Source: Hyphomonadaceae bacterium (GTDB lineage Bacteria; Pseudomonadota; Alphaproteobacteria; Caulobacterales; Hyphomonadaceae). Taken from it: 64,000 bases of DNA. The notes beneath the pieces are model-generated. The model worked only from the letters and a program-made list of their open reading frames with translations, ran no database searches and had not been told where the DNA came from. The DNA lies in the NCBI GenBank assembly GCA_022844345.1, contig JALHLU010000007.1:124001-188000 (forward strand), in the 5' to 3' direction. Numbering within the stretch: position 1 is the first letter of the stretch; the number at the start of each line of letters is the position of its first letter. Position numbers and translations under genes: made by a program. Positions 19,642 to 46,437 of the stretch are shown here, piece after piece.

Positions 19642-20093
19642 ACGCGACGGAATCCTCTTTCAGATACACATACAAAGACAGGATCGAGGGTCCACTGACG
19701 AACTTACCCAATCTTTAATCCACGTCACCCCAAAACAGCAGGCAGTTGAACTTTGTTTCCCATGGCGACCATTTTCGGGTCTGTACGCCTTCGGGTGGGA
19801 CACATCGTCCGCTCTGCTGGGTGAATCCTGCATGAACCATGCGAGCAGGGCAGCTGGCGGCTTGTGATTCATGGTTCTGCCGGACGACCGTGGACAAACC
19901 AAGGCAGACGCTGCGTTTCCGGCGCCAGTGCATTCGTTTCGGGGATAAGGCGGGAAGGCCCTTTCACTTGGGCCGCAGATCAATATCTAATGGGGACGAA
20001 CACCGGGTGTTTACTATCCCCATCCGGGGTGTTCGCGACTCAGGCGATCCTGCCGTCGTCTCGAAACAGGTCTAACGCCCAGGCTCCGCACTC
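19642..20093. other. Divergent intergenic region between dacA-like gene and clpS
   Basis: 452 bases, no convincing gene. Near clpS an inverted repeat CGAACACC / GGTGTTCG (19997-20004 and 20028-20035) and a nested TGGGGA / TCCCCA pair (19991-19996, 20017-20022) could fold the 5' leader of the clpSA transcript. No strong -35/-10 pair stands out. Small ORFs here lack ribosome-binding sites. Confidence 0.45.
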
Positions 20094-43908: not shown

Positions 43909-44823
43909 TTAGGCCACGTCGCTCTTCTTCTCGTGGGCGGAGTGGATCTTCTTGTTCACCAGGCGCTCGAGTTCGTTGGCGACTGCGGTGCGGTGGAGGA
44001 AGGCTTCTTCCGGCATGTCGAGGATGATGGCGATCGTCTGGAAGTGATATTTGACCACTTCGACATCGTAGGTGTCGGTCATGCCGACGCCTTCGACATA
44101 GCGCAGCGACGAGTTCCAGACCTTGCCGATCGTGTCGTCGCCGAGGCGCGAGACCTCGGCGCTGTTCTGCTGCAACATGCGGTACATGCCGCGGATTCCG
44201 GCGGTGCGATCGGTGGTCGTGCGGTCTGCATATTCGGTAAGATTCGAGATGATTGCACGCAGCTTGAAGGCGTTTTCCCTCGACTGTTCGGTCTGCGAAC
44301 TCTGCGGCGGTTCGTCGGTGAGGCGGCGCCAGGGGCCAGCGTAGTTGGGGTCTTCCTTGCGGCGGCGGCAGGGGCCGACATAATTGCGGCTGTCGATGAA
44401 CTTGCGCGGACGCAGCACGACTTCCTCGATGCGCGAGAGCACGCCCTGGGCGGAGACCGGCTTGAGCAGGAATTCGTTGATGCCGGCCTGACGGGCTGAC
44501 ATCAGCTGATCATGGTCGATAGCGCCGGCGAGCAGGATGATTGGTGTTTCGCGCGACATGCCGGTGGTGTTGCGGCGGACTTCACGTGTGAATTCGAGGC
44601 CGGACATCCGGCCCGCGTCCCAGTCGACAAAGATGATATCGGGCTTGAACATGCGGCCGACAGTGAACGCCTCGACGGCGGTGGCGGCGGCGCTGATGTT
44701 CGTGACCATCAGGCGGCGAAGCGAATCCGCGATGACGCCGCGCATGTAGGCGTTGGGATCGACGACCAGCATCTTCATGCGCTTGAGCTGGTCCTGCGGG
44801 ATGGTACGATCATCGGTCATCAT
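43909..44823 (-). CDS. Receiver-domain protein with GPxRRR C-terminal motif (intact receiver)
   Basis: 304 residues. CheY-like receiver in the first 130: KMLVVDPNAY, phospho-acceptor Asp in IIFVDWDAGRMSG, and the signal-relay Lys in NEFLLKPVS. The rest lacks a known output domain but has YVGPCRRRKEDPNYAGPWRR, a repeated GPxRRR motif also in the neighbour, then a long helical tail to 304. The ATG overlaps the upstream stop (TGATG), so translation is coupled to the second receiver gene. Confidence 0.82.
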   Translation of the reverse strand: MMTDDRTIPQDQLKRMKMLVVDPNAYMRGVIADSLRRLMVTNISAAATAVEAFTVGRMFKPDIIFVDWDAGRMSGLEFTREVRRNTTGMSRETPIILLAGAIDHDQLMSARQAGINEFLLKPVSAQGVLSRIEEVVLRPRKFIDSRNYVGPCRRRKEDPNYAGPWRRLTDEPPQSSQTEQSRENAFKLRAIISNLTEYADRTTTDRTAGIRGMYRMLQQNSAEVSRLGDDTIGKVWNSSLRYVEGVGMTDTYDVEVVKYHFQTIAIILDMPEEAFLHRTAVANELERLVNKKIHSAHEKKSDVA

Positions 44824-45704
44824 CAGGCGGCGCATTTCTTCTGGATGGCGTTGTCGAGGGCTGCGGCGACGCTTTCACGCGCTTCGGCGAAGGCGGGCGG
44901 CAGGGCGGAGAACTGTTCGAGTGCGGTGAGCGCCGTTTCGACGACTGCCAGATCGATCTCGCCGAGCGGCGTTGCGAGGACCATGTAGGATTCGAAAGCC
45001 GTAAGGCCGGTGTGCAAGGCCTGATCGTTCTGGTCGATTGCAGCTTCCTTGGCGATCTTCATTTCCTCGATGACGGCGTTCAGCGTCTCCGGGCGGCTCA
45101 CGCACATCTCGCGCAGGCGTGCGAGCGTGCGGCGGATCGGCGTTTCGCGGGCCACGTCGTCCTGGTCCACCATGACAGGACGTTCGACGGCGCGTTCGCC
45201 TGCGCGGCGCCGGGCGCCGTAATAGTCGGCCGGGTTCTTCCGGCGGCGGCAGGGGCCAAGAAAGACAGCGCTGTCGACGAAGGGGCGAGGCGTCTCGATC
45301 ACCATCTGCAGGCGCTGCAACAGGGCGGCTGGCGAGATCGGCTTGGCGAGGAATTCGTCGGCGCCTGCATCGCGTCCGGCAAGAACGGTCTGGCGTGTGA
45401 GGCCGTAGGTGACAAGCACGACCGGCAGGCGGCGCAGGCGGCTGTCGTCAATGCGCCGGATCGAGCGGATGAAGTCGAGGTTGTCGAGCGCGTCGGCTGC
45501 TTCGCTGGAAACGAGGACGACGTCGATAAGGCGGTCGCGGAGGAAGGCGCGGGCGGCTTTGGCGTCACGCGCGCAGGCGATGTCAGAGACGCCGAGATTG
45601 CGCAGGATCTCGCCGATCAGGGTTCGCGTAAAGCCGTTGGCGTCAACGACAAGCACGTTGAGCGATCGCAGCTTCAGCGGCCGAGGTTTTCTCGGGTCGT
45701 GCAT
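44823..45704 (-). CDS. Receiver-domain protein with degenerate acceptor site
   Basis: 293 residues, upstream partner of the previous gene. Receiver-like VLVVDANGFT and DEFLAKPIS (Lys present), but the strand that should end in Asp reads DVVLVSSEAADALDNLDF, with Ser-Ser where the acceptor would be, so it is likely a pseudo-receiver. The FLGPCRRRKNPADYYGARRR motif parallels the partner. It may form a fixed-state or heterodimeric partner (inference). Divergent from the RHH-PII gene. Confidence 0.82.
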   Translation of the reverse strand: MHDPRKPRPLKLRSLNVLVVDANGFTRTLIGEILRNLGVSDIACARDAKAARAFLRDRLIDVVLVSSEAADALDNLDFIRSIRRIDDSRLRRLPVVLVTYGLTRQTVLAGRDAGADEFLAKPISPAALLQRLQMVIETPRPFVDSAVFLGPCRRRKNPADYYGARRRAGERAVERPVMVDQDDVARETPIRRTLARLREMCVSRPETLNAVIEEMKIAKEAAIDQNDQALHTGLTAFESYMVLATPLGEIDLAVVETALTALEQFSALPPAFAEARESVAAALDNAIQKKCAA

Positions 45705-45930
45705 CCTGGCAGGCCCACCCATTCTGAGTTCGAGGATTACGGTAAACCAGCAAGGTAATTTTCCGGTTGAGGCGGGTGAGGCGAATTTGCCCTTAGGCTT
45801 TAACCTTTTAGCCGGCTGAGGCGTCCGCCAGGGCACATGCGCCGCAGTCTTGAAAAAGCGGCGTTTCGTCAATACGTTGGCTTTTGGTGTGTAAGTTGCT
45901 ACGTTAGGATCAGTAGCGCGGAGTATCGCC

Positions 45931-46437
45931 TTGTCCGACGACGAAAAACTCGACCAGCGCATCCAGCTTGTGGCCTCGCAGAGCTTTGGCAAGGATGTCG
46001 ATGACTGGCGGCGCACCCAGCAGGACCTGCCATCGCGCTCGGAAGCGATCAGGCGCCTGGTCTATCTCGGCCTCCAGCATGAACAGGAACACCCCATGCG
46101 CATGATCACGGCGATCGTCCGGCCGCACCGCTATGAGGCGGTTCGCGAGGCGCTGACCAAGCTGGGGGTGTCCGGCATCACGGCGACGCAGGTGCAGGGC
46201 TTTGGCCGCCAGCGCGGGCAGACGGAATTCTATCGCGGCAACGAATACACGACGGCCGAGGTGCCCAAGGTGCGCATCGATGTGGCGGTGCAGTCCGGCA
46301 TGGCCGAGGCGGTGATCGAGGCGATCCAGAAGGTGGCAGGTTCGGGCAAGATCGGCGACGGGAAGATTTTTGTCTCGGGGCTCACCGAGGTGGTGCGCAT
46401 CCGCACGGGCGAGCGGGATGAGAAGGCGCTGGATTAG
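45931..46437 (+). CDS. Ribbon-helix-helix/P-II fusion protein
   Basis: 168 residues. Residues 1-55 read as a CopG/Arc-type RHH DNA-binding domain (LDQRIQLVASQSFGKDVDDW with PSRSEAIRRLVYLGL); residues 56-168 are a complete P-II signal protein with GFGRQRGQTEFYRGNEY (uridylylation Tyr in the T-loop), GKIGDGKIFV and VVRIRTGERDEKALD. There is no stop between the two. A TTG start at 45931 follows GGAG at 7 bases. An internal ATG at 46096 has AGGA 7 bases upstream, so a standalone P-II could also be made. No amtB follows. Confidence 0.8.
   Translation: MSDDEKLDQRIQLVASQSFGKDVDDWRRTQQDLPSRSEAIRRLVYLGLQHEQEHPMRMITAIVRPHRYEAVREALTKLGVSGITATQVQGFGRQRGQTEFYRGNEYTTAEVPKVRIDVAVQSGMAEAVIEAIQKVAGSGKIGDGKIFVSGLTEVVRIRTGERDEKALD

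Follow-up and report, generated by a model that had tools for sequence, protein, structure and literature searches.

Can a P-II protein, rather than a partner of P-II, carry the nitrogen signal to DNA? Few signal proteins are as widespread as those of the P-II family, whose known routes to genes, to our knowledge, run through partner proteins. The question is raised by one gene in a stretch of 64,000 nucleotides from a Hyphomonadaceae bacterium (GenBank assembly GCA_022844345.1, contig JALHLU010000007.1, positions 124,001 to 188,000 of the forward strand), hereafter called the window, in whose own numbering positions are given. A preliminary description drawn from the letters alone had read this gene as a ribbon-helix-helix (RHH) DNA-binding domain joined to a full P-II protein. 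The fusion, named here RHH-PII, is real, old and conserved, and we identified for it a probable operator and a probable regulon of small genes of the DUF4278 family. Our favoured reading, which we hold to be likely, is that RHH-PII is a P-II-gated repressor of its own gene and of DUF4278 genes.

The fusion gene and its conservation

RHH-PII is encoded by a single open frame of 168 codons on the forward strand (45931-46437), which begins with TTG, contains no internal stop and runs from a putative RHH-type domain of 55 residues (residues 1-55, 45931-46095) directly into a complete P-II domain (residues 56-168, 46096-46434). A ribosome-binding site for the TTG start, GGAG (45920-45923), is placed seven bases upstream. 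The start codon keeps its place among relatives, being mostly TTG or GTG in the genus of the window and in Ponticaulis, and ATG in Henriciella and Parvibaculum.

A query of 71 residues covering the RHH domain and the junction was run on the window genome and on those of 100 relatives, 101 in all. It matched 29 of them at 0.001 and 25 strongly (E <= 8e-29; 13 in the genus of the window, seven in genus g3, two in g4 and one each in g6, g7 and g10), the weak matches (G068, G072, G088 and G100) being excluded from the counts. All 25 loci, own included, read from RHH into P-II across a junction with neither stop nor gap; a separate RHH gene ending in a stop before P-II was found in none of them. 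Through a scan of GTDB genomes 104 relatives were recovered and 80 kept, comprising 60 fusions (partly overlapping the 25 loci, as many come from the same genomes), one locus cut by a contig end (L098) and 19 stand-alone RHH homologues, which belong to other lineages than the fusions. The fusions were distributed across Hyphomonadaceae, Ponticaulis, Henriciella, Hirschia, Hyphomonas, Parvibaculum, Filomicrobium, Neomegalonema, one metagenome-assembled genome (MAG) each of Hyphomicrobiaceae and Rhodobacteraceae and the PS1/OCS116 group (L081-L094). Isolates carry them too, namely Ponticaulis koreensis, Henriciella mobilis and Parvibaculum indicum. When 385 genomes were drawn evenly from the class, seven matched at 1e-12, of which three are fusions (G000, G426, G450), one is a stand-alone RHH (G263) and three have open frames of 166-174 residues (G155, G279, G374). 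The survey of relatives that the preliminary description had called for has returned the same architecture repeatedly. A sequencing or assembly error that joined two genes has no point in its favour and is hardly credible when all 25 loci, and the 60 public ones with isolates among them, keep one frame from RHH into P-II; as the fusion is conserved among relatives, chance or error is excluded. In Hyphomonas sp. ih12 (L024 / L052 / L209) the fusion is frameshifted near its C-terminus, just before GKIGDGKIF, by error or decay.

The C-terminal part is a P-II domain by every measure used. Pfam P-II (PF00543) matches residues 56-161 over its full length (model 1-102, 93 bits against a cut-off of 25, E 1.6e-26) and matches 37 of 37 fused members. 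The closest PDB sequence match is GlnZ (3mhy, 6.1e-37, residues 56-167), and among solved structures those of GlnZ and GlnK stand nearest in sequence. The AlphaFold model (mean pLDDT score 81.5, below 50 for residues 1-9) leads in Foldseek to P-II structures (best 2ns1_B, 7.3e-14). Across the 37 rows of alignment A3 the residues G90, F91, G92, R93, R95, G96, Y101, R102, G103, E105, Y106, K113, G139, K140, G142, D143, G144, R156, I157, R158 and T159 are invariant, and Q94 and K145 are kept in at least 90% of rows. We take the invariant residues to be those of the nucleotide and 2-oxoglutarate motifs together with the T-loop tyrosine. The latter, Tyr106 (codon 46246-46248) in YRGNEY, corresponds to Tyr51 of GlnB/GlnK, which is modified there; as first described, both it and the GKIGDGKIF motif are seen in the window protein.

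RHH-PII thus resembles GlnB, GlnK and GlnZ in its full-length domain, its ATP and 2-oxoglutarate motif residues and its T-loop tyrosine, but differs from them in its N-terminal domain and in its position on a separate branch. The P-II domains of 29 fusions were split from 20 other rows by one branch in 96% of bootstrap trees, the bootstrap being not fully settled and two rows outside the RHH-PII group being a mistranslated stretch (L211) and a very long branch (L118). Besides, at least 90% of 37 RHH-PII members have Glu at T-loop position 55 (xEVPK against DFLPK/RLLPK of the paralogues). Ordinary P-II paralogues, at least one per genome, accompany RHH-PII in nine of nine genomes searched. In the window genome P-II genes lie by a glutamine-synthetase gene, by a metX-like gene and in a metal-efflux-type operon (neighbours named by eye); on contig C17 a divergent P-II-like gene (L121, 31% identical) sits in an operon that by eye is of the CzcCBA metal-efflux type. 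Linkage of RHH-PII to amtB or glnA was considered and rejected, as amtB lies elsewhere in the window genome and none of the P-II and amtB loci is beside RHH-PII.

Residues 1-55 read as an RHH-type domain with the putative recognition strand DQRIQLVAS and two helices (17-29 and 36-53); in the N-terminal model both helices are formed and the strand is unformed in the monomer. Comparison of profiles with residues 1-44 of Escherichia coli NikR gave a probability of 79% (E 1.5e-5) with colinear strand, turn and SEAIR helix; with 16 fused rows only, the value was 53%, and 40 letter shuffles reached at most 6.4%. PHROG 4738, a 'transcriptional repressor', matched the N-terminal domain at 7.4e-4, and in a set that also included stand-alone relatives RHH_1 matched 16 of 34 members (best 1.2e-4, from a fused or a stand-alone member). 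Other results speak against the assignment. RHH_1 was weak in the fused relatives (17 of 37 at E <= 0.5, best 0.012, short of the Pfam cut-off), the profile matches to the RHH domains of CopG (0.8%) and PutA (0.1%) were not above shuffles, a mixed NikR/CopG/PutA alignment reached 1.7% against up to 1.5% for 30 column shuffles, and Foldseek of the 54-residue N-terminal model returned no RHH structure (best E 3.8). Pfam found no domain in residues 1-55 of the window protein, and a PDB profile search with the RHH alignment gave nothing relevant. As Foldseek found no RHH structure, the assignment draws on weaker sequence evidence together with the operator described below. RHH-PII is like NikR in carrying a putative RHH domain and then a sensor domain in one chain, with N-terminal domains that align, and the sensor domain of NikR shares the ferredoxin-like fold with P-II. 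The C-terminal part of RHH-PII is, however, P-II and not a nickel-binding ACT-type domain, and the operator of NikR is unrelated to that of RHH-PII.

The probable operator and its likely reader

Upstream of the fusion gene TGTGTAA occurs on the same strand within 300 nt in 47 of 47 loci outside the PS1 group (the window and L035-L080), letter shuffles giving a mean of 0.86 and a maximum of 7. The core in the window, TGTGTAAGTT (45888-45897, forward strand), is the sole exact TGTGTAASTT in it, and two matches with one mismatch lie at 19701 and 20350. A candidate target DNA of RHH-PII is TGNGTAAGNTGTGTAAGTT. Sites were gathered in four sets, namely 47 upstream of fusions, 13 at YRG-repeat genes not beside a fusion (the DUF4278 genes treated below), eight in YRG promoters of the PS1 group and 11 beside genes of stand-alone RHH proteins. 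At offset -9 a further half-site matched TGTGTAAG at means of 4.64, 4.54, 5.50 and 4.45 of 8 positions, respectively, against medians near 2, and -9 was the best or second-best direct-repeat offset in all four sets; in the set of 13, offset +8 and an inverted half-site at -11 (4.85 each) came slightly above it. On these grounds the TGTGTAA-type repeat is probably an operator.

The window core falls between a probable -35 (TTGGCT, 45877-45882) and -10 (GCTAC, 45898-45902), assigned after the alphaproteobacterial promoter type; a sigma-70 scan found none. The form of the operator in this genus, TGTGTAASTTGCTA, was searched at up to one mismatch in five genomes of the genus, where it occurs once, exactly and adjoining the fusion, in four and is absent from the fifth; its reversed control gave 1, 3, 1 and 1 matches in four of the five. 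In this genus the operator occupies the space between the two probable promoter elements of the fusion gene itself, and so only autoregulation is visible there.

The 19 stand-alone RHH relatives fall into two groups by their recognition strand. In all six with Q-(L/I)-V at residues 12-14 (three from Asaia, one each from Rubritepida, Commensalibacter and an alphaproteobacterial MAG) the 300 nt upstream contain TGTGTAA or its complement, five of them in two copies, whereas none of 13 with other strands carries it; the grouping by strand was drawn after the sites were seen and parallels overall similarity, and one locus (L106) offers 168 nt of upstream sequence only. The six have no part but the RHH domain in common with the fusion; the RHH domain is therefore the likely reader, and this operator, which tracks the recognition strand, lends independent support to the DNA-binding role predicted for it in the preliminary description. 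In three of these loci from Asaia and Commensalibacter (L095, L096 and L100) the stand-alone RHH gene with its two operator copies stands beside genes that by eye resemble phage-type antirepressors. Such neighbours suggest that the RHH module may stem from a phage-type repressor and may be of prophage origin.

The operator might instead belong to another regulator with which RHH-PII merely co-occurs. In keeping with this, in the PS1 group the core is found upstream of one of 14 fusions and absent from 13, which weighs against our reading. That the operator recurs upstream of homologues with nothing but the RHH domain in common with the fusion, and of none with other strands, is difficult to explain in this way, as is the distribution of one-mismatch sites, found in 11 of 25 genomes with RHH-PII (that of the window genome counting as background) and in two of 76 without it. 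We therefore consider another regulator quite improbable and retain RHH-PII as the protein that would bind the site.

DUF4278 genes as the probable regulon

In 24 of 60 fused loci, and also in L098, a small divergent gene encoding YRG repeats adjoins the fusion; the loci come from Henriciella, Hirschia, Hyphomonas, Filomicrobium, Neomegalonema, Parvibaculum and others. In the PS1 group 10 of 14 loci have such a gene upstream of the fusion and in the same orientation, and one PS1/OCS116 genome has a tandem pair of them upstream of RHH-PII (L093, 9466-9778). The repeats usually number three and are spaced 21-26 residues apart in 17 typed examples. Nine of nine proteins tested match Pfam DUF4278 (PF14105), one of them partially and five above the cut-off (best 2.4e-8).

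Five of six genomes contain one exact copy of the 16-mer TGTGTAASTTTGTCAA, which lies at the fusion. The sixth, that of Ponticaulis koreensis, has two exact copies elsewhere, both in front of unlinked triple-YRG genes, and the copy at the fusion itself has two mismatches. The 101 genomes hold 19 sites with up to one mismatch against seven for the reversed control. Sixteen of the 19 lie in ten RHH-PII genomes outside the genus of the window, all before YRG-type genes, adjacent or unlinked (13 clear, three degenerate by eye: L166, L167 and L174); the remaining three (G000, G071, G094) stand without such a gene. The one-mismatch site of the window genome (C1:85870), where there is no YRG gene, was taken as background. 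YRG genes detected by profile at E < 1e-10 are present in nine of 25 genomes with RHH-PII and in none of 76 without it, weak matches (E 0.07-0.09: G000, G003, G023, G097) being excluded. Among 15 such genes 13 carry the site at 15-16 of 16 positions, its far end 81-108 nt 5' of the ATG, and the operator is present at 10 of 12 unlinked YRG genes. All eight YRG promoters examined in the PS1 group contain TGTGTAA. In many YRG promoters, read on the YRG strand, the operator is enclosed by TTGACA and a TATATT-like hexamer with a spacing of 17 bp, a position typical of repression, where a bound protein would block polymerase. The DUF4278 genes are thus the probable regulon of RHH-PII in many lineages.

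Several observations tell against so close a tie between fusion, operator and YRG genes. At up to two mismatches the 16-mer gave 12 matches in six genomes and its reversed control likewise 12, so that weight is given to exact and one-mismatch sites only. Two of the 15 YRG genes have no operator, and the related genomes in these counts are not independent of each other. In the class draw of 385 genomes a YRG match at 0.001 was found in only two of six with the fusion and in one of 379 without it. Genome G414, with no RHH-PII match, encodes a triple-YRG protein (L186), and no TGTGTAA followed by C or G occurs within that locus of 3.2 kb. Besides, no DUF4278 gene was found in the genus of the window, nor in the window genome by Pfam (E <= 1) or by profile (a partial match, 0.07).

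In the portions of PMC6316151 available, cyanobacterial DUF4278 genes are tied to glutamine riboswitches and nitrogen control, one riboswitch boosting expression in nitrogen excess. The cyanobacterial domain, which forms the N-terminus of IF17, belongs to the same small-protein family and is likewise nitrogen-controlled (PMC6316151, same portions), whereas the alphaproteobacterial promoters hold the presumed RHH-PII operator in place of the riboswitch; Rfam detected no glutamine riboswitch in seven alphaproteobacterial loci. In the accessible text of the open literature, DUF4278 appeared in cyanobacterial papers only. The family is known in that phylum from the control of glutamine synthetase as well as from the riboswitches. 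The idea of PirA as a counterpart of DUF4278 was dropped, as the term DUF is absent from the main text of PMC8092223 as far as it was available.

Possible free P-II, proposed ligand gating and significance

One gene may give two forms of the protein, as the preliminary description had suggested from an internal ATG with its own AGGA. Both are there: the ATG (Met56, 46096-46098) is the usual P-II start and AGGA (46085-46088), resembling a Shine-Dalgarno sequence, lies 7 nt 5' of it. Met56 is invariant in 61 of 61 sequences, though the need for a Met inside the frame is not obvious. Of 48 distinct sequences, 29 have a stretch resembling Shine-Dalgarno before Met56, where synonymous shuffles give 19.6 +/- 2.5, relatedness not being corrected for. 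Most Parvibaculum and PS1-clade sequences lack one. We infer, with moderate support, free P-II from Met56 as a second product.

This bears on an explanation in which RHH binds the operator and P-II works in trans on partner proteins, the fusion serving autoregulation or co-production and DNA binding being independent of ligands. It would fit the invariance of Met56, which permits free P-II, and the stand-alone relatives, which share the operator while having no P-II, so that recognition needs none. The junction in 60 loci has, however, neither gap nor stop, and an extra trans-acting P-II is not obviously needed where all nine genomes searched have an ordinary one. On balance we regard this explanation as unlikely.

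The reading that we prefer is a one-component repressor in which RHH binds DNA and the attached P-II would sense 2-oxoglutarate, ATP and ADP; we infer each of its parts, namely binding by RHH-PII, repression rather than activation, and gating by P-II ligands. The RHH domain would recognise TGTGTAAG-like half-sites repeated at 9-bp spacing, and binding of 2-oxoglutarate, ATP or ADP, or modification of Tyr106 (perhaps uridylylation), would shift the affinity for DNA. In this way RHH-PII would repress its own gene and DUF4278 genes, linked or unlinked. RHH domains are dimers and P-II proteins trimers, and this symmetry suggests that the full-length protein is probably a hexamer in which three RHH dimers connect two P-II trimers, or else forms mixed trimers with free P-II. 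That repression would occur under nitrogen limitation is a guess prompted by the cyanobacterial riboswitch (PMC6316151, in the portions available).

A further proposal, which we put forward as speculative, is a self-contained circuit for nitrogen made up of RHH-PII and the triple-YRG DUF4278 proteins under its control, whose LxYRG(V/A)x(H/Y) repeats would mimic the T-loop of P-II (ExYRGAEY). A protein of three repeats could then engage P-II receptors, or all three subunits within one P-II trimer, and so act back on P-II signalling, and mixed trimers that combine the long form with internally started P-II could tune the number of RHH arms; we entertain these points jointly and with the same reserve.

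Apart from these genes, two response-regulator-receiver genes (Pfam) lie on the reverse strand in the window, one divergent from the fusion (44823-45704, with a putative start; Pfam query span 44823-45716) and a second in tandem with it (43909-44835). The first adjoins the fusion, and the pair is present as a cluster, in 20 of 80 fetched loci. A further conserved stretch (GGTAAACCAGCAAGGTAATTTTCC..., within 45705-45800) precedes these genes in the genus of the window and is unrelated to TGTGTAA.

The status of P-II reportedly reaches genes through partners in the systems PipX-NtcA, GlnK-AmtR and NtrB. RHH-PII differs from these in that its DNA-binding domain lies in the P-II polypeptide itself. 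We found no report of an RHH fusion to P-II in the open literature, judged mainly by titles and with subscription journals mostly outside its scope. What is new is a probable operator and regulon for such a fusion. Here the P-II sensor itself appears to be the transcription factor, one whose operator is defined and whose regulon is small. The module is carried by the cultured strains Parvibaculum indicum, Ponticaulis koreensis and Henriciella mobilis. It would also link DUF4278 to P-II outside cyanobacteria and may offer a handle on the role of these tiny proteins.
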